DNA from: Rhodococcus sp. NBC_00297
GTDB lineage: Bacteria > Actinomycetota > Actinomycetes > Mycobacteriales > Mycobacteriaceae
Length of the DNA stretch: 64,000 nucleotides
Reading direction: 5' to 3'
Assembly (NCBI RefSeq): GCF_036173065.1
Contig: NZ_CP108041.1
Span: 1,364,001 to 1,428,000 of the forward strand
The notes beneath the pieces were generated by a model. That model saw only the letters and a program-made list of their open reading frames with translations. It did no database searches and was not told the origin of the DNA. Made by a program: the position numbers and the translations under genes. This document shows, in pieces, positions 27,711 to 63,639 of the stretch (its first letter is position 1; every line of letters starts with the position of its first letter).

Positions 27711-28397
27711 ATGGCCGCTCGACGAGACACCGACCGCACGGCGGACGACGGATCCACCCGCGAGCGCCTCGTCGACGCCGCCGTCGCTGTCCTGGCAGAG
27801 GAAGGCCCTGCCGAGATGAAGGTCCGTCGCATCAGCGACAGGGCAGGCTCCTCGACGATCACGGTCTACCACCACTTCGGGAACGTGGGCGGGCTGCTCG
27901 ACGCTGTCGTGGTGCGGGGATACGCGACGCTGACAGGGACTCTCGAGGACGCGGCCGCGTCGAACGACGACCCCGGTGTGCAGCTCTTCGCCATGGCCCT
28001 GGGAGCCAGAGGTTTCGCGCAGCGCAATCCGCACCTCTACGACCTGATGTTCGGACTCTCGCCGCGCGGAACCTACCGCGCGTCCGCTCCCCTTGTGCCA
28101 CAACAGCATTTCCGCAGGGCCTACGCCGTTCTGGTACGCAGCTGCCACCGACTGGTGACGGCCGGTCGCGTCGACATCGACGACCCGGAACAGATCGCCG
28201 CCCAGTTGTGGAGCCTGGTACACGGGTTCGTCTCACTCGAAGCGGCCGGCCACTTCGCCGATCACAGCGACCCAGTCGCGAGCGTCCTCGCGCCCATGGC
28301 TGTCGCCCAGCTCGTCGGTATCGGCGACGACCGCGCTCGGGCCACCCGCGGAGCGCTCGACGCCTACGCGACCTGGACCGCGACGGCAGTCGAGTAA
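27711..28397 (+). CDS. TetR-family transcriptional regulator of the DHA2 exporter
   Basis: 228 residues. STRERLVDAAVAVLAEEGPAEMKVRRISDRAGSSTITVYHHFGNVGGLLDAVVVRGY is the N-terminal HTH domain. The C-terminal part (NPHLYDLMFGLSPRGTY, AQLWSLVHGFVSLEAAGHF) matches the TetR_C_33/WHG-type ligand domain. It is divergent from the exporter at 26060-27646, with ATAAC-N3-GTTAT between. It is probably a local repressor induced by the exported compound, and not the regulator of the catabolic island that follows, whose operator is different. Confidence 0.88.
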   Translation: MAARRDTDRTADDGSTRERLVDAAVAVLAEEGPAEMKVRRISDRAGSSTITVYHHFGNVGGLLDAVVVRGYATLTGTLEDAAASNDDPGVQLFAMALGARGFAQRNPHLYDLMFGLSPRGTYRASAPLVPQQHFRRAYAVLVRSCHRLVTAGRVDIDDPEQIAAQLWSLVHGFVSLEAAGHFADHSDPVASVLAPMAVAQLVGIGDDRARATRGALDAYATWTATAVE

Positions 28398-28523
28398 GAG
28401 AACGCCCTGCCCGCTCGAGAGCTCGCCGATCGCGACTGCGACAACCTCGCAACCCGGATCGCGGCGCGCGGAGATGGGCACAGGCCCGTCGTGCCCGTCG
28501 TCGCACTGCCCTCACCTGCGTGA

Positions 28524-28552
28524 TTGACATCACAAGGACGTCATACTACTTT
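28524..28552 (+). promoter_or_regulatory. Sigma70-type promoter of the ABC importer operon
   Basis: TTGACA (28524-28529) is a perfect -35 box. After exactly 17 bases comes TACTTT (28547-28552) as the -10. The island operator begins at the very next base, so a bound repressor would cover the transcription start. Confidence 0.65.
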
Positions 28553-28570
28553 CAAACTGACATCAGTTCA
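28553..28570. promoter_or_regulatory. Island operator, site A (ABC importer operon)
   Basis: CAAACTGACATCAGTTCA matches the palindrome TGAACTGA-NN-TCAGTTCA at 14 of 16 arm positions; the right arm is perfect. It directly follows the -10 box and precedes the first binding lipoprotein gene by 57 bases. Confidence 0.7.
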
Positions 28571-28627
28571 GGAAGTCCACTCGCACCGACAGCCGAGCGG
28601 CCCTGTGAGTCCGAGAGAGGTCTGACC

Positions 28628-29662
28628 ATGCGGAGGATTCCCCGAGCCATCGCCACCGTTGCCATGGCAGCGTCGGCGTTCGCGCTCACAGCGTGCGGCG
28701 GCAGCACCACCCCGTCCGGGCCCGTCGAGGGCAGCTGGGACGACGTCGTCGCCGCGGCGAAGACGGAGGGCAGCGTGATGCTCTACTCCAGCCAGAAGCC
28801 TGCGAACCTCGACGCGCTGAAGGCCGCGTTCACGCAGAAGTACCCGGAGATCTCCATGGACTTCGTGCGCGGAACGGATTCCGAGATCAATCCCCGTGTC
28901 GAGACCGAGAACCGCACGGGTACAGGCATTGCCGACGTCCACATGGTGACCGACGCCTCGTGGATCGCCAGCGCGTCCGAGTCCGGCACCTTCTCCACCG
29001 AGATCGTGGGTCCGGACTTCGACGCACCCGACTACGACCGCGCGGCCAGCGTGAAGAACGACCGCTTTTTCCTCTCGTCCGCCGCTGTCTTCGGCCTCGG
29101 GTGGAACACCGCCGCGGTGCCCGACGGTCTCGAGACCCCGCAGGACATTCTGGACCCGGCCTACCGCGGCCGCATCGGCATCGTCAATCCGACGGGCATC
29201 GCGTCGTACGTCGACCTGTATCGGCACTACGCCGAGAACTACGGCGAGGACTACTGGGACAAGCTGGCCGAACTGCAGCCGCGTGTCTACCCGAGCGCCC
29301 TGGCCGTCGCGCAGGCCCTGACGTCGGGTGAAGTGGTGGTCTCGCCCAGCGTCCAGCCGCTCGTCACCGAGGTCGACGCGGGCGCTCCCGTCGACTGGGT
29401 GCTGCCGGAGAACCCTTGGGGCACACCGTGGTACACCGAGGTCCTGAGTGCGGCGCCGCATCCGAACGCGGCTCAGGTCCTGGCGGACTTCATGGTGACC
29501 GCCGAGGGACAGGCCGCGCTGAACGGTGGCTACGCCGCCGCGCTGCCGGATGTTCCGGGCGCCGTCGAGCGGGCACAGAACATCGCCTCACCCGATCCCG
29601 CCGATCTGACCCCCGAGAACGTCGACCGGTACTCGCAGGAATGGTCGCAGCTCTTCCAGTGA
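28628..29662 (+). CDS. ABC importer binding lipoprotein 1 (Fbp/AfuA-like family 1 solute-binding)
   Basis: 344 residues. The signal peptide ends in a lipobox, LTA-Cys23, then GGSTT. The mature protein begins EGSWDDVVAAAKTEGSVMLYSSQKPANLDALKAAFTQKYP and contains GTDSEINPRVETENRTGTGIADVHMVTD, GRIGIVNPTGIASYVDLYRHY and AAPHPNAAQVLADFMVTAEGQAAL, the layout of FbpA/AfuA/PhnS-like binding proteins. Two close paralogues lie at 48433-49470 and 57407-58462. Although the family is often called ferric-binding, the catabolic surroundings and non-IdeR operator suggest an organic ligand. It is the first gene of the importer operon. Confidence 0.9.
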   Translation: MRRIPRAIATVAMAASAFALTACGGSTTPSGPVEGSWDDVVAAAKTEGSVMLYSSQKPANLDALKAAFTQKYPEISMDFVRGTDSEINPRVETENRTGTGIADVHMVTDASWIASASESGTFSTEIVGPDFDAPDYDRAASVKNDRFFLSSAAVFGLGWNTAAVPDGLETPQDILDPAYRGRIGIVNPTGIASYVDLYRHYAENYGEDYWDKLAELQPRVYPSALAVAQALTSGEVVVSPSVQPLVTEVDAGAPVDWVLPENPWGTPWYTEVLSAAPHPNAAQVLADFMVTAEGQAALNGGYAAALPDVPGAVERAQNIASPDPADLTPENVDRYSQEWSQLFQ

Positions 29663-35608: not shown

Positions 35609-36232
35609 TCAGGGGCGCACCATCTTGAGCACCGCGGTGGTGACGGTCTCGGCGATCTCGTCGAGGGTGGCGGGGCCGTTCGGCCGGTACCACCGCCACA
35701 CGCTGATGACGAGGGCGAGGACCAGGCGTCCCACCGTCTTCGGATCTCCCTCGGCGAAGACCCCGTCGTCCATGCCACTGGCGATCAATCTCGTCCACCG
35801 ACGCTCGATCTCCTGGACCAGCTCTCGGGACTGGAGACGCTCGGCCTCCTCCTTCCCCGACTGCCGCTCCGTCGCCAGAAGGTCCATGTGGTTCTGCAGG
35901 ATCCGGCGCTGCAGAGCGTCCAGCGGCGAGGCCTGGAGAGCTCCCGCGACGGCGGCTCGCAGTGCCGCCTCCGGGTCGCTCCGGTCGGCCGTGGCCGCGT
36001 CGAAGCGCTCGACGGAATCCGCCAGTTCCAGACGCATGATGGTGAGCAGACAGTGCGCTTTGGATTCGAAGTAGTGGTAGAGCGCGGTCTGGCCTATTCC
36101 GACCTCGTCCGCCACCGACGCCCACTTGGTGTGGTCGTAGCCCACCCTGCCGAACTGCTCGATGGCGACGGTGAGAATACGAGACCGCTTGGAGCGCGGG
36201 CTCTCGCGGCGTGCCGTCGTTCCGACGCTCAT
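35609..36232 (-). CDS. TetR-family regulator, candidate repressor of the catabolic island
   Basis: 207 residues from ATG 36232; an in-frame extension to 36280 is unlikely. The HTH is KRSRILTVAIEQFGRVGYDHTKWASVADEVGIGQTALYHYFESKAHCLLTIM. The C-terminal domain (ALQRRILQNHMDLLATERQSGKEEAERLQSRELVQEIERRW...) resembles acyl-CoA-responsive TetR regulators such as KstR2. It lies inside the island, between the acyl-CoA synthetase and EthD genes on the same strand. It is the best candidate for binding TGAACTGA-NN-TCAGTTCA, with an acyl-CoA intermediate as inducer. Its own promoter shows no clear copy of that site. Confidence 0.85.
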   Translation of the reverse strand: MSVGTTARRESPRSKRSRILTVAIEQFGRVGYDHTKWASVADEVGIGQTALYHYFESKAHCLLTIMRLELADSVERFDAATADRSDPEAALRAAVAGALQASPLDALQRRILQNHMDLLATERQSGKEEAERLQSRELVQEIERRWTRLIASGMDDGVFAEGDPKTVGRLVLALVISVWRWYRPNGPATLDEIAETVTTAVLKMVRP

Positions 36233-36256
36233 CGCGGCAACCTCGAAGACTGGCCC

Positions 36257-36271
36257 GGCCGGCCTCCGGCC
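36257..36271. promoter_or_regulatory. GC-rich dyad between acyl-CoA synthetase and TetR genes
   Basis: GGCCGG-cct-CCGGCC is a perfect 15-base dyad, 24 bases before the TetR start and 30 bases after the synthetase stop on the minus strand. It could be a short terminator stem or an additional operator. It does not resemble the island palindrome. Confidence 0.35.
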
Positions 36272-36301
36272 TCCCCGCAACGTGTCAGCATCGTGCTCAT
36301 G

Positions 36302-39705: not shown

Positions 39706-40467
39706 TCAGTAGACCGCGGTGCGGCCGCCGTCGACGGGAATGATGGCACCCGTCGTGTACGACGAGGCGTCACTCGCGAGATGTACGACGAGACCGGCGA
39801 TCTCCTCGGGGCGACCCAGACGTCCCGACGGCAGCCGGTCGACGATCTTGCCGACGAACTCGTCGTCCCAGTGCTCGGCCATGTCCGTGGCAAATCCCCC
39901 GGGCATCACGCAGTTCACTCGCACGTGCGGCGCGTACTCCTGTGCGAACGCCATGGTCAGCGCATTGAGGCCGTTCTTGGCCGCGGCGTACATGGCTTCG
40001 GGCGGACTCGGTCGTACGGCGCCGATGCTCGAGATGTTGATGATCGACCCGCGCCCGGCGGCCGCCATCCGCGCTCCGGCCACTGCCATCAGCCTGAACG
40101 GACCCTTGAGGTTGACCTCGATGGTTTTGTCCCACAACCCTTCCGTCACTCCGACGAGGTTCTTGGACAGCGGTGCGATGCCGGCGTTGTTGACCACGAC
40201 GTCGAGTGAGCCGAACTCGTCGACGATGGCGTCGACCGCGGGTTCGATCTCGTCCCAGCGACCGACGTGCAGAGCGTGGGCGTGAGCGCTGCCCACCGTC
40301 GACGGTCCGAGTGAGGCGACTGCTTCCTCGCACGCCTCGAGTTTGCGGCTGGACACCACGACGGTGGCTCCCGCGTCGCGCAGTCCACGAGCGATGGCGA
40401 GGCCGAGGCCGCGGCTCGCGCCGGTCACGAGAGCCACTCTGCCGGTGAGGGAATGCGTATCGGTCAT
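39706..40467 (-). CDS. SDR dehydrogenase
   Basis: 253 residues starting four bases inside the acyl-CoA dehydrogenase stop (ATGA overlap). ALVTGASRGLGLAIARGLRDAG, SSRKLEACEEA (NADP-type), VVNNAGIAPLSKNL, INISSIGAV, MYAAAKNGLNALTMAFAQEY (YxxxK) and RVNCVMPGGFATDMAEHW are the SDR features, ending in TTGAIIPVDGGRTAVY. It is tightly coupled to the ACAD11-like dehydrogenase and kinase pair, which makes a 3-hydroxyacyl-CoA dehydrogenase role like LvaD attractive. Confidence 0.88.
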   Translation of the reverse strand: MTDTHSLTGRVALVTGASRGLGLAIARGLRDAGATVVVSSRKLEACEEAVASLGPSTVGSAHAHALHVGRWDEIEPAVDAIVDEFGSLDVVVNNAGIAPLSKNLVGVTEGLWDKTIEVNLKGPFRLMAVAGARMAAAGRGSIINISSIGAVRPSPPEAMYAAAKNGLNALTMAFAQEYAPHVRVNCVMPGGFATDMAEHWDDEFVGKIVDRLPSGRLGRPEEIAGLVVHLASDASSYTTGAIIPVDGGRTAVY

Positions 40468-41666
40468 CGGTACTTCTTCGTCTCGAGGCGGGCGATCGTG
40501 CGGAGATGCACCTCGCTGGGTCCGTCCGCGATCTGGAGGGCGCGGGTGATGGCGTGCAGGCGGGCCAGGACGAAATCGTCGCTGACCCCGGCCGCTCCGA
40601 ACGTCTGGACAGCACGGTCGACCACCTTGTGCGCCACCTCCATCGCCGCGACCTTGATCGCGGCGACCTCGGAGCGCGCCGAGGCGTTACCGCGGGTGTC
40701 CATCATCCAGGACGACTTCAGGACCAACAGTCGGATCTGGTCGATCTCGATACGACTGCGTGCGATCCACTCACGCACGACACCGCGATCGGCGAGCGGG
40801 GCACCGAAGGCCACTCGGTCGAGCGAACGGCGGCACATCATCTCCAGAGCGCGCTCGGCCATGCCGACGGCGCGCATGGCGTAGTGCATCCGGCCGGGGC
40901 CGAGACGACCCTGCGCGATGGCGAAACCGTCGCCCTCGGCTCCCAGCATGTTCGAGGCCGGCACCCGGACATCGGTGAACTGGACGTCGCCGTGCCCGAG
41001 ACGGTCGTGGAAACCGAACATCGGGAGATCGCGCAGGACCTCGATGCCGGGACTGTCGGCGGGAACCAGGATCATGCTCTGCTGACGGTAGGTCGGACCG
41101 TCCGGATCCGACTTGCCCATGAAGATGATGAGCTTGCAGTCCGGGTCGAGAACACCCGAGGTGTACCACTTTCGGCCGTTGAGCACGTACTCGTCACCGT
41201 CGCGCCGGATCGTCGAGGTGATGTTGGTGGCGTCGGAGCTGGCCACGGCCGGTTCGGTCATGGCGAACGCGGACCGGATACGACAGTCGAGCAGGGGCTC
41301 GAGCCAGTCCTTCTTCTGCTCCTCGGTACCGAACATGGCGAGGATCTCCATGTTGCCGGTGTCCGGGGCGGAGCAGTTGATGGCCTCGTTGCCGATGATC
41401 GAGCGCCCGACCACCTCGGCGAGAGGGGCGTACTCGAGGTTGGTGAGTCCGGCCCCGAGCCCGTCGTGCGTCATGAACAGGTTCCACAGTCCCTGCGAGC
41501 GCGCGGTCTCCTGCAGTTCGCGCATCACCGCCGGCTGCTCGTGCTTGTTCGTGTTCGCCGCGATCTGCGCGTCGTACACCTTCTCGGCGGGCAGAACATG
41601 GTCGGTCATGAATGTCTCGAGGGTCTCGAGCAGCGCGTCGGTACGAGCACTGTAGGAGAAGTCCAC
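40464..41666 (-). CDS. Acyl-CoA dehydrogenase, ACAD10/11-like
   Basis: 400 residues. It shows the FAD-binding AFAMTEPAVASSDATNITSTIRRDGDEYVLNGRKWYTSG, the middle beta domain (DVQFTDVRVPASNML), and the C-terminal helices with VQTFGAAGVSDDFVLARLHAITRALQIADGPSEVHLRTIARLE. The terminal DGPSEVH pattern is typical of the ACAD10/11 and LvaC group rather than classical fatty acyl-CoA dehydrogenases. The gene directly upstream encodes an APH-like kinase, giving the same kinase-then-dehydrogenase order that is fused in ACAD11. Inferred job: elimination of phosphate from 4-phosphoacyl-CoA or dehydrogenation of a substituted acyl-CoA. Confidence 0.88.
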   Translation of the reverse strand: MDFSYSARTDALLETLETFMTDHVLPAEKVYDAQIAANTNKHEQPAVMRELQETARSQGLWNLFMTHDGLGAGLTNLEYAPLAEVVGRSIIGNEAINCSAPDTGNMEILAMFGTEEQKKDWLEPLLDCRIRSAFAMTEPAVASSDATNITSTIRRDGDEYVLNGRKWYTSGVLDPDCKLIIFMGKSDPDGPTYRQQSMILVPADSPGIEVLRDLPMFGFHDRLGHGDVQFTDVRVPASNMLGAEGDGFAIAQGRLGPGRMHYAMRAVGMAERALEMMCRRSLDRVAFGAPLADRGVVREWIARSRIEIDQIRLLVLKSSWMMDTRGNASARSEVAAIKVAAMEVAHKVVDRAVQTFGAAGVSDDFVLARLHAITRALQIADGPSEVHLRTIARLETKKYR

Positions 41667-41718: not shown

Positions 41719-42690
41719 TCAGGCGAGCAGGGCGGTGCCGGTGTCGATCAGCCGAGAGATGGTGGCGGGCAGCTTCTCCTGGTCCGGATCGTGATGACGG
41801 CCCTCCCGGTGACGACGCAGGTTGTGCCCCATGATGGCGGCCATCTTGAGTCGTCCCAGGGCGTCGAACCACGGCAGGTCGGGCAGGTCACGTCCCGCAC
41901 CGGCGTAGATCTCCACCAACTCGTCGGCGCTCGGCAGACCGGGGACGGACCGCCCGACACCGGGGAAGTTGTCGCCGTCGGCGAAGACGAGGAACCACCC
42001 CAGCTCGACTCGGGGGTCGCCCACACTCCAGATCTCCCAGTCGATGAGCGCGACCGGCTCGGTGCCGTCCGCGATCAGGTTGCCCAGGCGATAGTCACCG
42101 TGCACCAGCGTCGACGAGACCGCGTCCGGGACGCGGGCACCGAGGAGGCTCAGCAGTCTGTCTCCGCCCTCCACCAGTTCCGGTGGAACGGCGCCCAGAG
42201 TGCGAGCCCACCGGGCGAGTTCGTCACCCGGTGTGAGTGTGGGGCCGGCGTCGGGCACTGCTCGGTGATCGACCGAGTGCAGCTCGGGCAGGACCGCTGC
42301 CGCACGCCGCATGCGCGCTGCCGCCAGCTCCGGGTCGACCGCCGGATCGTCCAGAACAGGCTCGAGCGACTCACCGCGGACGAATGTCATGGCGTACCAG
42401 GAGGGCTCGGTGTCGTCCACCATCACAATCGTGGGCACCGGCACCGACGTACCTGCGAGTTCCCGCATGATGGTCGCCTGCCGCAGCATGTCGTGGCGCC
42501 CGACGGGGCGCTGCCCCGCGGGCACGGCCTTGACCACCAAGTCGGTGTCGTCGGTCCGCACGCGGTAGGTCAGGCCGGAGTGTCCTCCGAGGAGTGGATC
42601 GAAGCTGCGCAGCGATCCGAGGCCGCCGGTCTCGAGCTTCTCGGCGACGCGTTGCTGTAGTGCGGAGTGTGTCGTGTCGTCGGTGGTCAC
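41719..42690 (-). CDS. APH-like phosphotransferase (LvaA/ACAD10-11 kinase-domain type)
   Basis: 323 residues from GTG 42690, overlapping the upstream dehydrogenase stop (GTGA). The kinase-like fold shows FDPLLGGHSGLTYRV (nucleotide loop), DLVVKAVP (Lys), the catalytic loop LVHGDYRLGNLI (HGDxxxxN, ~205) and metal-binding LIDWEIWSVGDPRVELGW. These are Brenner-type motifs of aminoglycoside phosphotransferases, but the position between two acyl-CoA dehydrogenases excludes resistance as the likely role. Known relatives LvaA and ACAD10/11 phosphorylate the 4-hydroxyl of 4-hydroxyacyl-CoA. A second such kinase lies at 61260-62279. Confidence 0.88.
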   Translation of the reverse strand: MTTDDTTHSALQQRVAEKLETGGLGSLRSFDPLLGGHSGLTYRVRTDDTDLVVKAVPAGQRPVGRHDMLRQATIMRELAGTSVPVPTIVMVDDTEPSWYAMTFVRGESLEPVLDDPAVDPELAAARMRRAAAVLPELHSVDHRAVPDAGPTLTPGDELARWARTLGAVPPELVEGGDRLLSLLGARVPDAVSSTLVHGDYRLGNLIADGTEPVALIDWEIWSVGDPRVELGWFLVFADGDNFPGVGRSVPGLPSADELVEIYAGAGRDLPDLPWFDALGRLKMAAIMGHNLRRHREGRHHDPDQEKLPATISRLIDTGTALLA

Positions 42691-43895
42691 GGCCTCGGCT
42701 CTCGGGGAAGGCCGAGAACGCGCTCGGCGATGATGTTGTGTTGGATCTCGTCGGTGCCGCCGGCGATGCGGTATCCGGGCGCGCCCAGGACGTGTTCCGT
42801 CCAGGCGAACGTGCCCCATTCACCGGTGTCGGACACCAGATCGGAGCCGAGCATCCGCCGGACCGCCGCCGACGTCCGGGACATCGTGGTGGTCGCGAGC
42901 AGTTTGCCGACGGACGCCTCGGGGCCGGGATCGCGTCCGGAGACGACGACGCCGGCGACGCGCATGGCGGTGACGCGCTGAACATGGCTGTGCACGACGA
43001 GATCGGCAACCTGATCCAGCTCGATCTCGGTGAGGGGCCGACCCAGATTGCGTGCCAGTTCCACGGCACGGTCGGCGTTCGCCAGTCCGAGGTTGCCACC
43101 GTCGAGTCGTTCGGCCGCCAGCACGGTGAGAGCGACCTGCCACCCCTGCCCCTCCGGGCCGAGACGGTGCGCATCGGTCAGCCGCACGTTCTCGAGGTAC
43201 ACCTCGTTGAACGAGCTGCCACCCGTCATCTGCCGGATGGGGCGGACGGAGACGCCCTCCGCGTCCATCGGGACCAGGAAAACGGTGAGGCCCTTGTGCT
43301 TAGGCACCGAGGAATCGGTGCGGCACACTGCCACCCCGATGTCCGAGACCGTGGCTCCCGACGTCCAGACCTTGTGGCCGTTCAGCACCCACCCGTCGCC
43401 GTCACGGACCGCGCGGGTGCGGACGGCCGCGAGGTCGGAACCGGCCTCGGTCTCCGAGAAGAGTTGGCAGGCCATGAGGTCGGTGCGCAGCATCGCTCGC
43501 ACGTACGTGGCGCGCTGCTCCGGCGTGCCCCATTTCTCGATCGTGGGCGCCACCAGTTGCTGTGTCACGGAGAACATCTCGGTGCGGCGCGGGACATCGA
43601 ACCGGTCCTCCGCGCGGCGGAAGGCGAGTACGTGGGAGAGCGGAAGATCTCGTCCACCGTATTCCGCGGGCCAGTCGAGCGGACCCCACCCGGCGTCGAA
43701 CTTCCGCCGTTCGTAGTCGCGGACGACGTCCGTGTGTCGTCGTTCCTCCTCGGGCGTCCAGTTCTCGAAGACGGCCACCGAGTCGGAGCCCTCGCCCCAC
43801 GTCGTGCTGGTCCGCGGTGCGGCCACGCTGCTGAGCCACTCCGTCGCCTCGGCGGTGAAGGCTCGGACGTCGGACGACACGGTGCTGGTACTCAT
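42687..43895 (-). CDS. Acyl-CoA dehydrogenase (FadE-like, actinobacterial catabolic type)
   Basis: 402 residues. LDWPAEYGGRDLPLSHVLAF, CQLFSETEAGSDLAAVRTRAVRDGDGWVLNGHKVWTSG (FAD-binding), LTVFLVPMDAEGV, FNEVYLENVRL and the C-terminal APGYRIAGGTDEIQHNIIAERVLGLPREPRP are clear. GGTDEIQ-N-I-ERVLGLPR is the hallmark of FadE-type subunits from sterol and branched acid pathways. It may pair with the dehydrogenase at 46394-47548 as a heteromer; that pairing is inference. Its stop overlaps the APH-like kinase start, so the two are made together. Confidence 0.9.
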   Translation of the reverse strand: MSTSTVSSDVRAFTAEATEWLSSVAAPRTSTTWGEGSDSVAVFENWTPEEERRHTDVVRDYERRKFDAGWGPLDWPAEYGGRDLPLSHVLAFRRAEDRFDVPRRTEMFSVTQQLVAPTIEKWGTPEQRATYVRAMLRTDLMACQLFSETEAGSDLAAVRTRAVRDGDGWVLNGHKVWTSGATVSDIGVAVCRTDSSVPKHKGLTVFLVPMDAEGVSVRPIRQMTGGSSFNEVYLENVRLTDAHRLGPEGQGWQVALTVLAAERLDGGNLGLANADRAVELARNLGRPLTEIELDQVADLVVHSHVQRVTAMRVAGVVVSGRDPGPEASVGKLLATTTMSRTSAAVRRMLGSDLVSDTGEWGTFAWTEHVLGAPGYRIAGGTDEIQHNIIAERVLGLPREPRP

Positions 43896-46350: not shown

Positions 46351-46368
46351 TGAACTGGATTCACTTCA
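46351..46368. promoter_or_regulatory. Island operator, site B (crotonase operon)
   Basis: TGAACTGGATTCACTTCA matches TGAACTGA-NN-TCAGTTCA at 14 of 16 arm positions. On the minus strand it begins at the base following the -10 box, the same geometry as site A. Confidence 0.7.
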
Positions 46369-47617: not shown

Positions 47618-47635
47618 TGAACTAAGTTCGGTTCA
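47618..47635. promoter_or_regulatory. Island operator, site D (SnoaL side), touching the start codon
   Basis: TGAACTAAGTTCGGTTCA matches the palindrome at 14 of 16 arm positions. Its last base is the first base of the SnoaL ATG, so transcription must begin at or very near the start codon. Confidence 0.65.
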
Positions 47636-48432: not shown

Positions 48433-49470
48433 ATGAGCACGTGGTGTCGTACGCTCGCGGCGCTGACATCGGCAGCCGCAGTCGGGTTGTCGGCGGCCTG
48501 CAGCGGTGGGGCGACAGCGTCCGGACCGGTGTCGGGCACGTGGGACGACGTGGTCGCCGCGGCGAAGGACGAGGGATCCGTCTACCTGTACTCGTCGCAA
48601 CATCCCGAGAACCTCGCCTCGGTGAAGACCGGATTCGAGGCGACGTATCCCGGCATCACGCTGGAATTCACGCGGGGTTCCGACGTCGAACTGAACCCCC
48701 GCGTGGACGCGGAGCACAAGTCCGGGCGCGGGATCGGCGACGTCCACATGACCACCGACCCCGCGTGGATCCGCGCGGCCGCCGACTCGGGCGAGTACTC
48801 GGTGAACGTCGTCGGACCCTCGTTCGACAACCCCGACTACGGTCGAGACACCAGCGTGCTGGAGGACAAGCTCTTCCTCACCAGCGCCGCCGTTCTGGGG
48901 CTCGGCTGGAACACCACGGCATTACCGGACGGTCTCGACAGCCCGGAGGATCTGCTGGCTCCCGAACTGCGTGGACGTATCGGCGTCGTGAATCCGGCGG
49001 GCTTCGCCGCCGTGACCGATCAGTTCCGGTTCTTCGACCGCAACTGGTCACCCGACTACACCGACGAACTCGCGCAGAACGAGCCACGTGTCTATCCCGG
49101 TGTTCTGGCCGTCGCACAGGGCCTCGGGTCCGGAGAGATCATCGCCACGCCGATGGTCCAACCCCTCGTGCGCGAGCAGGAGGCAGGCGCACCCGTCGGG
49201 TGGTTCAGGCCGGACCCGGCGTGGGGCGCCCCCTACTACTCCCATGTTCTCGCGTCCGCACCGCACCCGAATGCAGCGCAACTTCTGGCCGACTTCCTCG
49301 TCTCCCCCGAGGGCCAGCAGGCGTTGTCGAAGGGGTACGCGAGTGTGCTGCCGAACATCCCGGAGTCGGTCGGACGCGCACAGGACCTCGCACTGACCGA
49401 CCCCGCGGACCTCGACCCCGCAGCGGTCACCGAGTACCAGGCGGAGTGGGAACAGCGTTTCATCCGGTGA
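48433..49470 (+). CDS. ABC importer binding lipoprotein 2 (paralogue)
   Basis: 345 residues with lipobox LSAA-Cys23. The mature part is closely related to lipoprotein 1 at 28628-29662: GTWDDVVAAAKDEGSVYLYSSQHPENLASVKTGFEATYPGI, GSDVELNPRVDAEHKSGRGIGDVHMTTD, LFLTSAAVLGLGWNTTALPDGLDSPEDLL and SAPHPNAAQLLADFLVSPEGQQAL. The ligand-loop region GFAAVTDQFRFFDRNWSPDY differs most from the other two copies (GIASYVDLYR...), suggesting a different ligand. There is no permease beside it; it probably docks to the importer at 30502-33389. It is co-transcribed with the SnoaL genes. Confidence 0.9.
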   Translation: MSTWCRTLAALTSAAAVGLSAACSGGATASGPVSGTWDDVVAAAKDEGSVYLYSSQHPENLASVKTGFEATYPGITLEFTRGSDVELNPRVDAEHKSGRGIGDVHMTTDPAWIRAAADSGEYSVNVVGPSFDNPDYGRDTSVLEDKLFLTSAAVLGLGWNTTALPDGLDSPEDLLAPELRGRIGVVNPAGFAAVTDQFRFFDRNWSPDYTDELAQNEPRVYPGVLAVAQGLGSGEIIATPMVQPLVREQEAGAPVGWFRPDPAWGAPYYSHVLASAPHPNAAQLLADFLVSPEGQQALSKGYASVLPNIPESVGRAQDLALTDPADLDPAAVTEYQAEWEQRFIR

Positions 49471-54880: not shown

Positions 54881-55218
54881 GCCGCACCGACCGCGCTCGG
54901 CGTCATCCCGGTCCACCGGCGGAAGGCGCGCCGGAACGCCCGTGGTTCCGAGTAGCCCAATCGGGCCGACACGATGTCCAGGGCCTCGCCGCGCCGCAGT
55001 GCCTCCACCGCACGCGCGGCGTCGTGTCGAGCACGCAGAGCGCCCAGCGTGGTCGATTCACCGGCGAGCAGGCGCCGTAGGTGCGGCTCGCTGATGTGGA
55101 GAGCACGGGCCACCGCGGTGGTGCTCGGCAGGGGTCCGCGGCCACAGGATGCGAACTCGTCGAGCACCCTGAGTGATACCGGTCCGAGTTCGATCCCTCC
55201 GGATCGCGTGTCGGTCAT
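54877..55218 (-). CDS. Minimal AraC-type DNA-binding protein (HTH only)
   Basis: 113 residues from ATG 55218, overlapping both neighbours by ATGA. STTAVARALHISEPHLRRLLAGESTTLGALRARHDAARAVEALRRGEALDIVSARLGYSEPRAFRRAFRRWTGMTPSA is a complete two-HTH AraC domain. There is no N-terminal effector domain, only ~35 residues (GGIELGPVSLRVLDEFASCGRG). It is encoded between a DUF1254 and a reductase gene. It may be a local activator whose signal comes from elsewhere. Confidence 0.85.
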   Translation of the reverse strand: MTDTRSGGIELGPVSLRVLDEFASCGRGPLPSTTAVARALHISEPHLRRLLAGESTTLGALRARHDAARAVEALRRGEALDIVSARLGYSEPRAFRRAFRRWTGMTPSAVGAA

Positions 55219-56561
55219 CGGTCCCCCACGGTCCGAGACGACCTGGCGGGCGTCCGCCGCACGACTGGCGGGCTCCACGCCCGGTCCGAGGGTCCGTACA
55301 GCCGCAGCATCAACCGGAAGTCTCCGGACGGAGTCGGGAGCCAGTTGCTCGTCCCTTCCGCGGGCGGGGTCGACGCGAGTCGAACGGTCAGGGATCCGTC
55401 GTGCGCCACCGTCACGCCGGGCGTCCGGTCGGTGATTGCATATCGGCCGATCGAGTTCTCGCACAGCAGTCCTCGCTTGTGGTAGACGGTGAGGGACCAG
55501 AAGAAGCGCGCCGGCGGCGCCTCGCCGGCAGCGAAAGTGATGTCGTAGGAATGCGCACCCGACAAGGGGCGCCCACCGTCGTCCACCTCACACACCGGGT
55601 ACAGCGCCTCGTCCGCCGGGTTGACGTAGATCTGAGACAACGCGACGGCCGCGCGCAGAAGATGGTCGTCGCCGAAATCCGTGCCGAGTTCGTTGACCGA
55701 CCAGCCGTTCGTCGTCCGGCCCAGCGACCTCACCCGGTCGGCGATCGCATCCAGGCCGTCGGACAACCCTGCTGCGAACTGCGAACGTGCTCGCGTGAAC
55801 TGTTCCCCTGCGTGCAGCGCTCTACGCAGTCGCGCCAAGCTCTCGCGGACCGCGGGTGGCACGTCCGCCGCCGCGACACCGGCGACGGCGTGGTCCAGCG
55901 AGTCGAGAAAGGCTTCCGGATCGCGTAGTTCGTCATCGCGTTCACGGAGGACGAGCGTGCGGGTGGCAGCGTCGCACGCAGCTCCGGGCGCACGCGGCCC
56001 GTCCAGCACGATGGCGTCCTGCACGGCGATCACTCGCCGGAGATCCTCGGCATCGTCCGGTCGCACCAGGATGCGCACTGCAACCATGACATGACGTGTT
56101 CGGCAGGCCACCAGTAGTTCGTCGTCCGCCATGACCACCTCGCTGCCCGAGCGGACGATATGCAGTGTCGGCAAACGGCTCCCGTGTGTCCGCTGACCCT
56201 GTACCGCGATGGTCGTCGAGTCGGCCTCACCTAGCTGAATGCAGTAGTAGCGGTCACCGAGATCGGGCATTCGAAGCGTGAACGACCCGACATCGAGGTC
56301 GACGAAGGCCAGTGAGTAGAGCGTGTCCACGTTGGGAGCCACTCCTGCGGTGAGGGTGGGATCGGACAACCTGCGCTGATGGCCCATCGTGTTCAGCGCT
56401 GCACCCGCCGATGTGAGCGGCCGGTCCACGTCAGGCTCCAGCGGGGATGTGAACCGGAGACGCAGTCGCTGAGCGAAGACGAGCGGAAATCCCCAGATCT
56501 GCAGCGCGCGCGCGTCGCGGAACAGCTCGTCGCCACCATCCGAGCAGTCGGGTGCAGTCAC
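55215..56561 (-). CDS. DUF1254/DUF1214 protein (copy 1)
   Basis: 448 residues. The N-terminal DUF1254 shows LQIWGFPLVFAQRLRLRF and the family signature VAPNVDTLYSLAFVDLDVGSFTLRMPDLGDRYYCIQLGEADSTTI. The C-terminal DUF1214 shows HSYDITFAAGEAPPARFFWSLTVYHKRGLLCENSIGRYAITDR and SNWLPTPSGDFRLMLRLYGPS. The biochemical function of the family is not established. There is no signal peptide. A copy sharing the same plan lies at 58565-59986, and both stand beside an island operator. It is the first gene of the operon with AraC and reductase. Confidence 0.88.
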   Translation of the reverse strand: MTAPDCSDGGDELFRDARALQIWGFPLVFAQRLRLRFTSPLEPDVDRPLTSAGAALNTMGHQRRLSDPTLTAGVAPNVDTLYSLAFVDLDVGSFTLRMPDLGDRYYCIQLGEADSTTIAVQGQRTHGSRLPTLHIVRSGSEVVMADDELLVACRTRHVMVAVRILVRPDDAEDLRRVIAVQDAIVLDGPRAPGAACDAATRTLVLRERDDELRDPEAFLDSLDHAVAGVAAADVPPAVRESLARLRRALHAGEQFTRARSQFAAGLSDGLDAIADRVRSLGRTTNGWSVNELGTDFGDDHLLRAAVALSQIYVNPADEALYPVCEVDDGGRPLSGAHSYDITFAAGEAPPARFFWSLTVYHKRGLLCENSIGRYAITDRTPGVTVAHDGSLTVRLASTPPAEGTSNWLPTPSGDFRLMLRLYGPSDRAWSPPVVRRTPARSSRTVGDR

Positions 56562-57406: not shown

Positions 57407-58462
57407 TCAGCCCTGGAACTTCTGCTCCCACTCACGTGATTCCCGCTCGATGAACTCGGGAGTGAGTTGTGTCGGATCGGGCCCGGCGATGTCATGGGCG
57501 TCGGCGGTCGCGCCGTCGATACCGGGCAGCGCAGTCGCGACCCCGATCGCCTGCGCTCGTTGACCTTCGGGGCTGACCAGGAAGTCGGCCAGAACCTGCG
57601 CAGCGTTGGGATGAGGCGCGACCGACGTGACGTGACCGTAGAACGGTGTTCCCCACGACGGCGTCGGGAGCGCCCAGTTCACCGGAGCTCCGGACGCGAC
57701 CTCCTGCACGAGAGGCTGGACCATGGGGGAGACGACGACCTCACCGGAGGTGAGTGCCTGCGCGACCCCCAGCGAGCTCGGGTAGATACGAGGCTGCTGC
57801 TCGGCGAGTTGATCCACGAAATCGTCGCCGAAGTTCTCGCGGTAGAAGCGGTAGAGATCCACGTAGGACGCGATGCCGACGGGGTTGACCACGCCCACCT
57901 TGCCTCGGTACTCGGGGCGCAGGACATCGCGCGGATCCGTGAGTCCGGTCGGCACGGTACCCGAGTTCCACCCCATGCCGAAGGTGGCGGCGACGTCGAG
58001 GAAGAACCTGTCGTTCTTGACGCTGCGGTCCCGTCCGTAGTCCGGATCGTCGAACGCGTCGCCCTTCAGAGACTGGGAGTACGCGCCGGACTCCGCCGCC
58101 GACGCGATCCATGCCGTGTCCGTGACCACGTGTACGTCCGCAGTGCCCTTGCCGGTCTTGTTCTCGGTCTCGACACGAGGATTCAGATCCGCGTCCGTTC
58201 CGCGAACGAAATCGAGAGTGATCTCGGGGTACGTCTGACTCCAGGCCTTCTTCACGCTGTCGAGGATCGTGGTGTTCTGGCTCGAGTACAACATCACCGA
58301 CCCCTCGGACTTCGCCGCGGCGACGACGTCGTCCCAGCTCCCCTCCACCGGAGAGGTACCCCCTCCACCGCTGCTGCCGCACGCCGTCATCGTCAGCGCC
58401 ACCACCCCGACCACAGCGATCGTGGTCGTCCGGATCGATCTACCGAGAGCACTCATGTCCAT
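57407..58462 (-). CDS. ABC importer binding lipoprotein 3 (paralogue)
   Basis: 351 residues with lipobox TMTA-Cys28 and a GSSGGGG linker. It is highly similar to lipoprotein 1: EGSWDDVVAAAKSEGSVMLYSSQNTTILDSVKKAWSQTYPEITLDFVRGTDADLNPRVETENKTG, VKNDRFFLDVAATFGMGWNS, NPVGIASYVDLYRFYRENFGDDF, ALTSGEVVVSPMVQPLVQEV and VAPHPNAAQVLADFLVSPEGQ. Together with copies 1 and 2 it forms a family of three with one permease/ATPase set. The perfect island palindrome lies 10 bases upstream, between it and DUF1254 copy 2. The gene is monocistronic. Confidence 0.91.
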   Translation of the reverse strand: MDMSALGRSIRTTTIAVVGVVALTMTACGSSGGGGTSPVEGSWDDVVAAAKSEGSVMLYSSQNTTILDSVKKAWSQTYPEITLDFVRGTDADLNPRVETENKTGKGTADVHVVTDTAWIASAAESGAYSQSLKGDAFDDPDYGRDRSVKNDRFFLDVAATFGMGWNSGTVPTGLTDPRDVLRPEYRGKVGVVNPVGIASYVDLYRFYRENFGDDFVDQLAEQQPRIYPSSLGVAQALTSGEVVVSPMVQPLVQEVASGAPVNWALPTPSWGTPFYGHVTSVAPHPNAAQVLADFLVSPEGQRAQAIGVATALPGIDGATADAHDIAGPDPTQLTPEFIERESREWEQKFQG

Positions 58463-58471
58463 CTCCTTTGT

Positions 58472-58489
58472 TGAACTGACCTCAGTTCA
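58472..58489. promoter_or_regulatory. Island operator, site F (perfect palindrome)
   Basis: TGAACTGACCTCAGTTCA is a perfect inverted repeat with 8-base arms and a 2-base centre. It lies between binding lipoprotein 3 (start 58462, minus) and DUF1254 copy 2 (start 58565, plus). On the minus strand a -10-like TACTTG (58496-58491) stands one base upstream of it, as at site A (TACTTT). Confidence 0.8.
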
Positions 58490-58564: not shown

Positions 58565-59986
58565 ATGACTCGAGGACGAGAAGCGGCCACCGTGAGTGGC
58601 CCGACGCCGTACGACCCTGCTCGAACCGACCAGTACCAGGAATCGACGTCCGACGACGTCCGACCCGTGGCCGCCGACGAGGCGCTCACACTCGCGTCCG
58701 TGCTCGCGCAGCAGGCAGTGCTGTACGGCGTGCCCGCCGTCTACCAGTACGCGAATATGTGTGCACAGTGCGCTCCGGATGCCGACGGTGCACCGTGGTC
58801 CGTCAACACCTTGGTCCACGAGAGAAGCACGGCCGGTTCGGATTTCCGCCAGTTCCGGGTTCCGAACGTCGACACGGTCTACTCCAATGCCTGGCTGGAT
58901 CTGACCGACGGACCGGTGACCATCGAGCTACCCGACTTCGGTGGCAGGTACTACACCCTCGAATTCCTGGACGCCCACAGCAACGTGAGCAACGTCAGCG
59001 CGCGGACGCATCCGGACGGTCCACGCAGGATCATGGTGATCGCGCCGGGCCAGGACGGCCCCGACACCGCGCGGTCGTCCGACGTCGTGTCCTTTCCCGT
59101 GTCCACGCCGCTGATGTGGCTGCTCATGCGCATCCAGGTTCACGGCGCTCCCGACGACATCGACACGGTCAGGACACTGCAGGACTCGGTCGTCCTCACC
59201 GGTCCACCTCCCCGCTCCCGTTCGTGGCCCGTTCTGCTCCGGGAGGAGGTGGAGTCGTCCGCCGCCGCGTTCCTGACGGCCCTCGATGCCGTGGTGGCCG
59301 TCAACGGTGTTCCGGTGCAGGATGTGTCGCACGTTCACCAGTTCCGTCAGCTGAACGTCGGTCCCGGTACGCCGGAGGTCGGCGATCTCGACGAGGTGGT
59401 GTCACGAGGCGCCGATCTCGGCTTCACACGCGCCATGTCCCTGCTCGACACGTCCCGATCCCGCCTCGGGCGGCGCACGGCGTCCGGGTGGACGCGGGTA
59501 CTCGACAAGGGCGCACACGGACACAACTTCGTGGCACGCGCCGTCATGAACTTCGTGGGACTCGGAGCCAACGTCGTCGAGGAGAACTGCTCGTACAACA
59601 CGTACGTCGACTCGGACGGAACCGCACTGACGGGCCTCGGAGGCCGCACCTACGAGATCACTTTCTCCGAACCCCCACCCGCAGAAGCGTTCTGGAGCGT
59701 CACCTTGTACGAGGCCGATACCGGCTGGCTGTACGACGCACCCGGCGACGTGTTCTCCGTCGGATCGACCACCTCGCCGGACGGTGTGGTGTCCACTCCC
59801 TCTCGAATCGTGGTCGGGTACGCGAGACCCGATGACCTCGATAGTCGGGAATCCTGGCTTCCCGCCCCACCACGTCCGTTCTTCCTGGTACTACGCATGT
59901 ATCGACCTCACGAAGACGCGGTGACCGAACGTTGGTCACCGCCGCCTGTCGATCCGTCGAGGGTTCCGTCACCTACGGGCCCGTGA
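58565..59986 (+). CDS. DUF1254/DUF1214 protein (copy 2)
   Basis: 473 residues from ATG 58565, with GAAGGAG six bases upstream; a GTG at 58499 is in frame but lacks a ribosome site. LASVLAQQAVLYGVPAVYQYANM begins the DUF1254 part. The signature is RVPNVDTVYSNAWLDLTDGPVTIELPDFGGRYYTLEFLDAHSNVSNVSART. The DUF1214 part is GRTYEITFSEPPPAEAFWSVTLYEADTGWLYD and ESWLPAPPRPFFLVLRMYRPHEDAV. It shares the plan of copy 1, but has an additional ~45 residues near LTGPPPRSRSWPVLLREEVESSAAAFL. Function unknown. It shares site F with binding lipoprotein 3. Confidence 0.88.
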   Translation: MTRGREAATVSGPTPYDPARTDQYQESTSDDVRPVAADEALTLASVLAQQAVLYGVPAVYQYANMCAQCAPDADGAPWSVNTLVHERSTAGSDFRQFRVPNVDTVYSNAWLDLTDGPVTIELPDFGGRYYTLEFLDAHSNVSNVSARTHPDGPRRIMVIAPGQDGPDTARSSDVVSFPVSTPLMWLLMRIQVHGAPDDIDTVRTLQDSVVLTGPPPRSRSWPVLLREEVESSAAAFLTALDAVVAVNGVPVQDVSHVHQFRQLNVGPGTPEVGDLDEVVSRGADLGFTRAMSLLDTSRSRLGRRTASGWTRVLDKGAHGHNFVARAVMNFVGLGANVVEENCSYNTYVDSDGTALTGLGGRTYEITFSEPPPAEAFWSVTLYEADTGWLYDAPGDVFSVGSTTSPDGVVSTPSRIVVGYARPDDLDSRESWLPAPPRPFFLVLRMYRPHEDAVTERWSPPPVDPSRVPSPTGP

Positions 59987-60054
59987 GCCTCGAACCACGT
60001 CTCAGCACGACCCCACCGAGCGAACGCTCCTGGACCATGTGAAAGGGAACCACC

Positions 60055-61263
60055 ATGGCGATCGATCTGACCTACGACCCCGTCGTCCGCGAGTGGATCG
60101 AGCGCACCCGCACGTTCACCCGCGAGCACGTCCTGCCCATCGAGGACAAATTCCTCGGTGACGTCACCGCCGCCGGCGGCGACGACCTGCGCCGAGAGTT
60201 GCAGGCAGCGGCGAAGGACGCGGCGGTGTTCGCCCCCCACGCTCCCCGCGAGTACGGCGGCGGTGGACTGTCCATGAGCGACCGCGCCCCCGTGTTCGAG
60301 GAAGCGGGCTACTCCCTCTTCGGACCGATCGCGACGAACATCGGCGCCCCCGACGAGGGCAACGTCCACCTCCTCGCCCACGTCGCCTCCCCCGCCCAGA
60401 AGGAACAGTTCCTCGCCCCCCTCGCCCGCGGCGACGTGCGGTCCGCGTTCGCGATGACCGAACCCGCCCCCGGCGCCGGATCGGACCCCTCCGCCCTCAC
60501 CACCACCGCCACCCGCACCGACGGCGGCTGGCGCATCGACGGCCACAAATGGTTCATCACCGGCGCCGACGGCGCCGGATTCTTCATCGTCATGGCCCGC
60601 ACCTCCGGCACCCCCGGCGACCGCGGCGGCGCCACGATGTTCCTCGTCCCCGCCGACACCGCCGGCATCACCGTCGGCCGCCACATCAGCACCCTCGACC
60701 GCGCCATGATCGGCGGGCACTGCGAAGTCACCTTCGACCGCGTCGTCGTGCCCGAGGACAACGTCCTCGGCGCCGTCGACGAAGGATTCACCTACGCCCA
60801 GGTCCGCCTCGGACCCGCCCGCATGACCCACGTCATGCGCTGGCTCGGCGCCGCCCGACGCGGACACGACGTCGCCGTCGCCCACGTCGCCCACCGCGAA
60901 GGGTTCGGCAGCCGCCTCGGCGACCTCGGCATGGTGCAGAAGATGATCGCCGACAACGAGATCGACATCGCCGCCACCCGCGCCCTGCTCGTCACCGCCT
61001 GCCACGCACTCGACCTCGGCGACCCCGCGAGCAACGAGACCTCCATCGCCAAGACCTTCGCCGCCGAAGCCATCTTCCGCATCGTCGACCGCGGCGTGCA
61101 GATGTGCGGCGGACTCGGTGTCTCCGACGACCTGCCCCTCGCCCGACTCTCCCGCGAGGTCCGCCCCTTCCGCGTCTACGACGGCCCCTCCGAAGTGCAC
61201 CGGTGGGCCATCGCCAAACGCGCCGTCGGCGCCGCCCGCCGCGCCGCGAAGGCGCAGCCGTGA
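60055..61263 (+). CDS. Acyl-CoA dehydrogenase, ACAD10/11-like (second module)
   Basis: 402 residues. FAPHAPREYGGGGLSM, RSAFAMTEPAPGAGSDPSALTTTATRTDGGWRIDGHKWFITGADGAGF (FAD-binding), CEVTFDRVVVPEDNVLGAVDEGF and VQMCGGLGVSDDLPLARLSREVRPFRVYDGPSEVHRWAIAKR are clear. As in the dehydrogenase at 40464-41666, the DGPSEVH ending and an adjacent APH-like kinase mark the ACAD10/11/LvaC group. The following kinase gene overlaps it by GTGA. Codons here are markedly richer in C at the third position than in neighbouring genes. Confidence 0.9.
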   Translation: MAIDLTYDPVVREWIERTRTFTREHVLPIEDKFLGDVTAAGGDDLRRELQAAAKDAAVFAPHAPREYGGGGLSMSDRAPVFEEAGYSLFGPIATNIGAPDEGNVHLLAHVASPAQKEQFLAPLARGDVRSAFAMTEPAPGAGSDPSALTTTATRTDGGWRIDGHKWFITGADGAGFFIVMARTSGTPGDRGGATMFLVPADTAGITVGRHISTLDRAMIGGHCEVTFDRVVVPEDNVLGAVDEGFTYAQVRLGPARMTHVMRWLGAARRGHDVAVAHVAHREGFGSRLGDLGMVQKMIADNEIDIAATRALLVTACHALDLGDPASNETSIAKTFAAEAIFRIVDRGVQMCGGLGVSDDLPLARLSREVRPFRVYDGPSEVHRWAIAKRAVGAARRAAKAQP

Positions 61264-62279
61264 CCACCACCCTCCCCGGCATGAACGTCGCCGCACTCGA
61301 GACGTTCCTGCGCGACAACGGCATCGACATCACCGGAAAACTGTGCGTCGATCGCATCGCAGGAGGCCGGTCCAACCTCACCTACCGCGCCCACGACGAC
61401 ACCACATCCTGGATCGTGCGACGCCCCCCGGTCAGCGGACTGACCCCCTCCGCCCACGACATGGCCCGCGAGTGGACCGTCACCCGCGCCCTGGCCGGCA
61501 CCGACGTCCCCGTCGCCACCGCCGTCGCCTTCGACGCCGACGGCGCCACCCTCGGAGCGCCGATGACCGTCGTCGAGTTCGTCCCCGGACAGGTCGTGCG
61601 CACCCGCACCGACCTCGACGCCCTCACCGACGACGACATCGCCGCGAACACCAGCGAACTCGTCCGTGTCCTCGCCGCGCTGCACGCCGTCGACCACCAC
61701 GAGGTCGGACTCGCGGACTTCGGTCGGCCCGACGGATTCACCGCCCGACAGGTCGCCACCTGGGGACGGCAATGGCACCGCGTCAAGACCCGCGACCTGA
61801 ACGACATCGACCGACTGCACCAGGCCCTCACCGACGCCGTCCCCGCCCACTGCGCCGCCGCCATCGTGCACGGCGACTACCGCGTCGACAACACCATCCT
61901 CACCCACGGCGAGCCCGGAACCGTTGCCGCACTCGTCGACTGGGAGATGTCCACCCTCGGTGACCCCCTCACCGACATCGCCCTCATGTGCGCCTACCGG
62001 CAACCCATGTTCGACACCGTCCTCGGCGTCGACGCCGCCTGGACCTCCCCCCGCTACCCCGACGCCGACGACCTCGCCCAGCACTACGCCGCCGTATCCG
62101 GACGCGACCTCGCCCACTGGAACTTCTACCGCGCCCTCGCCGACTTCAAGATCGCCGTCATCGCCGAAGGCATCGCACACCGCGCCGCCACCTCCGACGA
62201 CACGGACGGCACCGCCGCAGCAGCCGCCCACGCCACAGCCGAATTCGCCGCAGCCGGGCTGCGCGCGTTCTCACGGTGA
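61260..62279 (+). CDS. APH-like phosphotransferase (second module)
   Basis: 339 residues from GTG 61260, overlapping the dehydrogenase stop; ATG 61281 is a possible alternative. IAGGRSNLTYRAHD (nucleotide loop), SWIVRRPPVSGLTPSAHDMAREWTVTRALAGTDVPVATAVAF, PMTVVEFVPGQVV, IVHGDYRVDNTIL (catalytic HGD-N) and LVDWEMSTLGDPLTDIALMCAY (metal DW-x(6)-GDP) follow the group found in ACAD10/11. The kinase and dehydrogenase are translationally coupled, which argues for sequential action on the same acyl-CoA. It shares the C-rich third positions of its partner. Confidence 0.9.
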   Translation: MTTTLPGMNVAALETFLRDNGIDITGKLCVDRIAGGRSNLTYRAHDDTTSWIVRRPPVSGLTPSAHDMAREWTVTRALAGTDVPVATAVAFDADGATLGAPMTVVEFVPGQVVRTRTDLDALTDDDIAANTSELVRVLAALHAVDHHEVGLADFGRPDGFTARQVATWGRQWHRVKTRDLNDIDRLHQALTDAVPAHCAAAIVHGDYRVDNTILTHGEPGTVAALVDWEMSTLGDPLTDIALMCAYRQPMFDTVLGVDAAWTSPRYPDADDLAQHYAAVSGRDLAHWNFYRALADFKIAVIAEGIAHRAATSDDTDGTAAAAAHATAEFAAAGLRAFSR

Positions 62280-62316
62280 CCCGCAGACACCACTTCTGAT
62301 CGAGAGGCCGACAGCA

Positions 62317-63639
62317 ATGAACGACATCGCGTGCGACGTACTGGTGATCGGCGGAGGGATGGCCGGTCTGACCGCCGGGGCCCGTGCCGCGTCCGCAGGT
62401 AGATCCGTCGTCGTGGTGGAGATCGGTGCGGATGTCGGCGGATCCGCGCGCTATGCCGGATACGTCTGGACGGCACCGGATCACACCGTCATGGATGCAC
62501 AGAACCCGCACGGTGACCCCGCCCTGAGACGACTACTGGTGGACCGGTTCCAGGACGGCGTGCAGTGGATACGTGACACCGGTGTGGAGGTGGGTGACGC
62601 TCAGCGAATCCTGTCCTTCGGGCGCGGACACAAATTCGACACCAACCAGTACGTCGATCTGTGTCGGCGCATCGTCCTCGAGTCCGGCGGAGCGGTCCTG
62701 CTGAACACGAGCACCGAGAGCCTGTCGTTCGAGAACGGCGTCGTCACCGGCGCGGTGATCCGGACCGGCACCGCGGAACCACAGGACGTGCGGGCGGCGC
62801 ACACCGTGCTCGCCACGGGCGGTTTCCAAGGGTCCGCAGCGCTGCTCGAGAAGCACGTTCATCCGAATGCAGGGCGCATGCAACTGCGCTCGAACCCCCA
62901 CAGCACGGGCGTGGGCCTGACACTCGCCGAGAGCGTCGGCGCTGCCGCCGGTGCGATGAACGCCGGCTTCTACGGGCACCTGATTCCCAGCGGGGTGACC
63001 CTGACGGACCCGTCCGATTTCGTCGACATGTCGCTGTACTACAGCGAACACGCGCTCCTGTTCGATCTCGACGGGACGCGCTTCGTCGACGAGACACTCG
63101 GTGATCACCTGACGACGATGGCTCTGCTCGACCGGCGCGAGGCACGCGGCCTCCTCGTGGCGGACGCTCGCGTGCACCGGGACTGGGTCCTGGCCTCGTA
63201 CGTCGAGGGCGCCGTGGCCGTCGACAAGTTCGCACTGGCGAGCAAGCGCGGGGGTCGGGTCGGACGCGCGGACACGCTGGAGGAGCTCGAATACCTACCG
63301 GAGGACTGGGGATACGACGGAGCCGCCATCGCGGCCGCGATCGCCGACTTCAACGAGTCCACCACGTCGGCGGAGGGACCGACACCGGGACGAGCGCTCG
63401 ATGCGAGCGCGCTGAGCGAACCCCCGTACTACGTCATCGAAGCTGTCCCGGCCGTCACCTTCCCGTTTCACGGCATCAGAGTCGACGGCGATGCCCGCGT
63501 TCTGACAGCGAACGGCGAGCCGATTCCGGGCCTGCTGGCAGCTGGTTCCGACACCGGCGGTCTGTGGAACCGGGCGTACGCAGGCGGTCTGGCGGCCGCT
63601 CTGGTGCTCGGACTCGTGGCCGCGGAGACTGCCGAGTGA
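62317..63639 (+). CDS. FAD-dependent oxidoreductase (fumarate-reductase/succinate-dehydrogenase flavoprotein family)
   Basis: 440 residues. VLVIGGGMAGLTAGARAASAGRSVVVVEIGADVGGSARYAG is the FAD-binding N-terminus. The capping domain and TVLATGGFQG, GVGLTLAESVGAAAGAMNAGFYGHLIPSGV follow. The end PFHGIRVDGDARVLTANGEPIPGLLAAGSDTGGLWNRAYAGGLAAALVLGLVA is typical of the soluble group that includes 3-ketosteroid dehydrogenases, urocanate reductases and tricarballylate dehydrogenase. There is no heme or FMN domain. It probably inserts or removes a double bond. It lies 37 bases after the kinase gene. Confidence 0.87.
   Translation: MNDIACDVLVIGGGMAGLTAGARAASAGRSVVVVEIGADVGGSARYAGYVWTAPDHTVMDAQNPHGDPALRRLLVDRFQDGVQWIRDTGVEVGDAQRILSFGRGHKFDTNQYVDLCRRIVLESGGAVLLNTSTESLSFENGVVTGAVIRTGTAEPQDVRAAHTVLATGGFQGSAALLEKHVHPNAGRMQLRSNPHSTGVGLTLAESVGAAAGAMNAGFYGHLIPSGVTLTDPSDFVDMSLYYSEHALLFDLDGTRFVDETLGDHLTTMALLDRREARGLLVADARVHRDWVLASYVEGAVAVDKFALASKRGGRVGRADTLEELEYLPEDWGYDGAAIAAAIADFNESTTSAEGPTPGRALDASALSEPPYYVIEAVPAVTFPFHGIRVDGDARVLTANGEPIPGLLAAGSDTGGLWNRAYAGGLAAALVLGLVAAETAE

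Follow-up and report, generated by a model that had tools for sequence, protein, structure and literature searches.

A second dehydrogenase-kinase gene pair (pair 2, consisting of ACAD2 and KIN2) in a catabolic island of a 4.8-Mb Rhodococcus-type genome very probably encodes a split ACAD10/11 system of the LvaA/LvaC type, i.e., a 4-hydroxyacyl-CoA kinase and a phosphate-eliminating dehydrogenase, and is a latecomer to the island. ACAD10/11 and the bacterial LvaA/LvaC enzymes phosphorylate 4-hydroxyacyl-CoA and then eliminate the phosphate to produce 2-enoyl-CoA (PMC12440821, PMC11342911). By the chemistry of these published enzymes, KIN2 would place a phosphate on the 4-hydroxyl of 4-hydroxyacyl-CoA, and ACAD2 would expel the phosphate by means of FAD, the catalytic aspartate and an Arg/His/Arg pocket, giving 2-enoyl-CoA; there would be no net oxidation in the ACAD2 step, and the 2-enoyl-CoA would be completed by ordinary beta-oxidation. 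The 4-hydroxyacyl-CoA substrate class is taken from the published enzymes, and the placing of the hydroxyl at position 4 is an assumption based on relatives. We document for pair 2 its gene structure, protein family, active-site residues, conserved coupling and purifying selection. The enzyme type is already known; what is unusual is the capture of a cassette by a catabolic island, the codon composition of the cassette, and the occurrence of His and Tyr side by side at one active-site position.

Gene organization of pair 1 and pair 2

The window, i.e., the whole stretch of DNA that was analysed (64,000 nucleotides, C1:1364001-1428000), carries both pairs:

60055..61263, + strand: ACAD2, acyl-CoA dehydrogenase of the predicted ACAD10/11-LvaC type, 402 aa (Pfam, structure match, aligned residues)
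61260..62279, + strand: KIN2, APH-fold kinase of the predicted LvaA or ACAD10/11 kinase-domain type, 339 aa, GTG start codon (Pfam, structures, motifs)
61260..61263, + strand: GTGA overlap, KIN2 start codon over ACAD2 stop codon (sequence)
40464..41666, - strand: ACAD1, dehydrogenase of pair 1, Tyr at the H634 position (alignment)
41719..42819, - strand: KIN1, kinase of pair 1; the true start is probably nearer 42690

A sequence-only reading of this DNA had described a second, coupled dehydrogenase-kinase pair with a different gene order and clearly unlike the first, and in these respects it was accurate: both open reading frames are present with the 4-nt GTGA overlap at 61260-61263, the dehydrogenase gene comes first in pair 2 and the kinase gene first in pair 1 (minus strand), and the two ACADs and the two kinases are 36% and 34% identical, respectively. 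Because the ACAD gene is next to the kinase gene in 74 of 80 pair 2 ortholog loci and the ATGA/GTGA overlap is retained in 72 of 78, the coupling is not due to chance; pair 2 thus has the genetic coupling of an ACAD10/11-type module. Comparison with a strain of the same species, Rhodococcus sp. UNC23MFCrub1.1 (the nearest named relative among the loci compared), gives dN/dS values of 0.055 (ACAD2) and 0.16 (KIN2), and pair 2 is therefore under constraint; selection appears to keep it functional.

Amino acid sequence analysis of ACAD2 and KIN2

ACAD2 contains the Pfam domains Acyl-CoA_dh_1/M/N. When it was searched against all solved structures, the top match was mouse ACAD11 (8v3u, 205 bits), which no solved chain from the ACAD2 sub-branch outscored; no assayed enzyme of this subfamily was found in the literature consulted. 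R626, H634, R637 and the catalytic D753 are the diagnostic residues of ACAD10/11 (PMC12440821, PMC11342911). In the alignment to mouse ACAD11, equivalents of H597, R626, R631, H634, M636, R637 and D753 are all present in ACAD2. The three residues of the R626/H634/R637 phosphate pocket lie in the helix AQVRLGPARMTHVMR, in which C635 is replaced by V (HVMR vs HCMR), a position that is variable in other family members too, and the catalytic Asp (D753 of mouse ACAD11) is found in place of Glu in the segment YDGPSEVH. The diagnostic residues (AQxRLGPARMTHVMR, YDGPSEVH) are conserved in 80/80 ACAD2 orthologues. As controls, three conventional ACADs encoded by the host carry Glu as the base and are devoid of the phosphate pocket; in a fourth conventional ACAD of the host, the base position is readable as neither Glu nor Asp. 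A conventional ETF-linked ACAD is expected to have Glu and no pocket, whereas ACAD2 has Asp and the full pocket.

KIN2 matches the Pfam family APH with 150 bits. Its matches among solved structures include 3dxp and 9o56, and it also strongly matches mouse ACAD11 in the kinase domain (8v3v). Its catalytic Asp and Asn lie in VHGDYRVDN, which aligns with VHGDFKLDN of ACAD11 (D220/N225), and a second motif, DWEMSTLGDP, is also kept; the corresponding catalytic motifs occur in 74/74 KIN2 orthologues found.

The APH fold is broad, and KIN2 has weak matches to the APH(3') and thiamine kinase models, so that KIN2 could be imagined as an antibiotic or small-molecule phosphotransferase that lies by accident beside an ordinary fatty acyl-CoA dehydrogenase. 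We consider this explanation highly improbable: the matches are far under the cut-offs (31.5 bits against 205 for the APH(3') model NF033068 of NCBIfam, and 33.8 bits against 299 for thiamine kinase), ACAD2 carries ACAD11-specific residues, and the ACAD-kinase coupling is kept over many genera. KIN2 was rejected as an antibiotic-resistance kinase on the basis of these scores.

Codon composition

Pair 2 is a strong compositional outlier in the host genome. The fraction of codons with C at the third position is 0.737 in ACAD2 and 0.741 in KIN2 (background of 256 genes: mean 0.472, SD 0.065, maximum 0.665), and the fraction with T is 0.012 and 0.015, respectively. The skew runs along both genes and drops back at the gene borders. 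Among the 80 orthologues, with the same-species copy set aside, the third-position C content of the window pair is the highest, the next value being 0.645. High expression is a possible source of the C-ending codons, but the value for rpoB, 0.53, does not support it.

Island context and arrival of pair 2

The island core consists of genes for a CoA ligase, Zn-ADH, SDRs, ACAD1-KIN1, a further ACAD, thiolase and ECH, together with another ACAD, SnoaL-like proteins, an ABC transporter and a TetR protein. The core including pair 1 is found in eight sampled genomes and also on the 704-kb linear plasmid NZ_CP014942.1 of Rhodococcus sp. BH4. The BH4 plasmid island contains a 3-hydroxyacyl-CoA dehydrogenase and a thiolase, neither of which was found in the window version. 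Three related solute-binding proteins are encoded in the window island (28208-29662, 48433-49470 and 57407-58462), and only one ABC permease/ATPase set was seen. Two DUF1254/DUF1214 proteins (55215-56561 and 58565-59986) are also encoded there, and the DUF-SBP-DUF arrangement recurs as a conserved trio in other genomes. The papers searched yielded nothing relevant on the island substrate, for which jasmonate is a guess.

In the stretches compared from the eight genomes and the BH4 plasmid, no copy of pair 2 is present in the island; among the sampled island versions it occurs only in those of this species. The idea that pair 2 is an ancestral part of the island was discarded, the other sampled versions being without a copy. 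In the window, pair 2 is bordered by two ancestral members of the island:

58565..59986, + strand: DUF1254/DUF1214 protein, ancestral island member, probable first gene of the run (Pfam; island homologues elsewhere)
62317..63639, + strand: FAD-binding oxidoreductase (FAD_binding_2), ancestral island member (Pfam; 37 nt 3' of KIN2)

In other genomes, the island homologues of the DUF1254 gene do not have pair 2 adjacent, and the FAD oxidoreductase gene adjoins the island ABC-transporter genes.

At a threshold of E <= 1e-100, 36 of 61 relatives have an ACAD2 orthologue; no ACAD2 match at this threshold was detected in G002, the closest relative compared (93% nucleotide identity around rpoB). Pair 2 orthologues are widespread in Nocardia and are found in some mycobacteria, where they have a locus of their own. 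The usual locus in Rhodococcus, Nocardia and mycobacteria is arranged in the order TetR-ACAD-kinase-SDR with the 4-nt overlap kept, and beyond the TetR gene there are genes for a CoA ligase and an MFS carrier in several of these genomes, R. kroppenstedtii and R. corynebacterioides among them. Orthologues of the usual SDR and acyl-CoA synthetase (CoA ligase) are absent from the host genome; this absence, the third-position C skew and the lack of pair 2 in the other sampled island versions support a late arrival of the pair.

The neighbours in R. kroppenstedtii and R. corynebacterioides (CoA ligase, MFS carrier, TetR, SDR) resemble the set of an lva operon, and pair 2 might accordingly be a passenger that serves general use of 4-hydroxy or 4-keto acids (levulinate-like), outside the island pathway. 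This is possible but rather unlikely: those partners are missing here, and pair 2 is only 68 and 37 nt away from island genes on the same strand.

A phylogenetic tree of the pair with 75 rows places the window pair together with its counterparts from R. kroppenstedtii and R. corynebacterioides, at an SH-aLRT of 99. The host stretch C1:1346142-1355045 is collinear with the native locus of R. kroppenstedtii and contains other genes and no pair 2. A SulP neighbour gene located about 67 kb from pair 2, in the same relative orientation, had prompted the reading that pair 2 stayed at its native spot and the island was inserted beside it; this was rejected in view of the collinear stretch without the pair and the island genes on both flanks. 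The same two facts indicate that pair 2 was moved or re-acquired: in this species it came to lie between two old island genes either by relocation or by transfer from a near relative. Relocation with later change and transfer from an unsampled close relative are both possible, and they are not distinguishable because the tree position beside R. kroppenstedtii and R. corynebacterioides fits both. In a search for flanking repeats or transposase scars in the 59.9-62.4 kb region, only codon-composition repeats were seen. Pair 2 illustrates how a degradation island can gain a step by capture of a two-gene cassette.

Island palindrome and putative control of pair 2

58472..58489: TGAACTGACCTCAGTTCA, perfect 18-bp copy of the island palindrome, 5' of the gene at 58565
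28553-28570, 46351-46368, 47618-47635, 58472-58489: palindrome sites, candidate operator set
35609..36280, - strand: TetR-type island regulator that may recognize the palindrome (Pfam TetR_N, TetR_C_24)

A whole-genome scan for the palindrome TGAACTGANNTCAGTTCA with up to two mismatches (<=2) detected four sites, all in this island, and its reversed control pattern gave zero sites in the genome. Across 58565-63639 every gene has the same orientation, the successive spacings being 68, -4 and 37 nt, and only one terminator-like site on that strand was detected within the run, inside ACAD2, at a count near the shuffled expectation. Since a perfect palindrome precedes 58565, the genes of the run lie close together in one direction, and the terminator scan is as described, pair 2 is probably part of a palindrome-controlled transcript DUF1254-ACAD2-KIN2-FADox, which would start from the palindrome-bearing promoter region at ~58.5 kb. 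The earlier statement that no palindrome lies directly upstream of pair 2 holds for the 68-nt gap, but it misleads because an exact copy sits upstream of the co-directional gene 58565-59986 leading into the pair. The different control proposed for pair 2 on that ground is doubtful, as one of the four palindromes of the genome heads the run.

Divergence of the two pairs

ACAD1 scores 423 bits against ACAD11, compared with 205 bits for ACAD2, and ACAD2 is distant from the ACAD11-like ACAD1 (36-37% identity). H634 contacts the phosphate in ACAD11, and its change to Ala or Leu is among the most disruptive ACAD11 substitutions (PMC12440821). Tyr replaces this residue in ACAD1 and in 8/8 ACAD1 orthologues examined, and the pair 2 lineage has His; the His vs Tyr difference between the two modules is real and fixed. 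The sequence-only reading took the pairs to be independent modules, and the case is stronger than it claimed, with pair 1 in the island core and the pair 2 lineage in a separate locus elsewhere. An origin of pair 2 by internal duplication of pair 1 was rejected in view of the 36%/34% identity and the separate orthologue groups. Different substrates for pairs 1 and 2, such as the two hydroxyl-bearing intermediates or two chain lengths proposed in the sequence-only reading, are plausible.

A third pair (SDR-ACAD-kinase) is located outside the island at C1:3516140-3518133, within C1:3515308-3518406. Its ACAD is 56% identical to ACAD1, and it contains the full HCMR motif.

The two pairs have the reaction type and the island in common and possibly share palindrome-based control, and pair 2 could have been fixed as extra capacity for the same island intermediate as pair 1. 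Such redundancy is somewhat doubtful given the 36%/34% identity, the different ancestral gene neighbourhoods, the fixed His vs Tyr at a phosphate-contacting residue and the purifying selection on pair 2. We tentatively suggest, as another possibility, two non-redundant hydroxyl-removing modules (His and Tyr) that would differ in the enantiomer, ring or chain position they handle, with the second captured as a stand-alone cassette from outside the island; if so, the captured cassette would widen the substrate range of the island. The His vs fixed Tyr difference at the phosphate-contacting site is a natural contrast within one genome, and the role of this residue and substrate choice are therefore open to test.

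Comparison with known systems

The mammalian ACAD10 and ACAD11 enzymes serve in the catabolism of 4-hydroxy acids (PMC12440821, PMC11342911). Pair 2 resembles them in being a kinase plus ACAD unit with the catalytic Asp, the R626/H634/R637 pocket and the kinase residues D220/N225, and differs from them in consisting of two separate proteins, with the dehydrogenase gene first, HVMR for HCMR, and a distant ACAD. The actinobacterial pair, usually labelled "acyl-CoA dehydrogenase" and "phosphotransferase", is now tied to recent ACAD10/11 chemistry. Among stand-alone bacterial proteins, 3dxp and 9o56 (APH-fold kinases) and 4hr3 (an ACAD, and the best solved-structure match of ACAD1) are counterparts of the two domains, and their structure titles give no function.

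LvaA and LvaC of Pseudomonas putida belong to the lva operon for levulinate (PMC6692424). Like them, pair 2 has a split kinase and ACAD with the genes side by side, and the likeness extends in pair 2 orthologues elsewhere to an adjacent SDR gene and, in some, to a CoA ligase and a transporter. Unlike the lva operon (lvaABCDE), the window pair has no LvaD-type SDR or LvaE-type CoA ligase beside it and is located in another catabolic island; LvaB (DUF6285, PF19802) was not found in the host genome in a search in which the positive control plasmid gave a match. Kinase, ACAD and SDR genes also occur together on Cupriavidus and Azotobacter plasmids. The Azotobacter plasmid (L236:4266-13122) has an lva-like kinase-DUF6285-ACAD-SDR-CoA ligase arrangement with transposases adjoining.

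A further comparison is within the island itself: pair 1 and its orthologues share the enzyme types of pair 2, but there the kinase gene comes first, Tyr stands for His634, and the genes belong to the island core.
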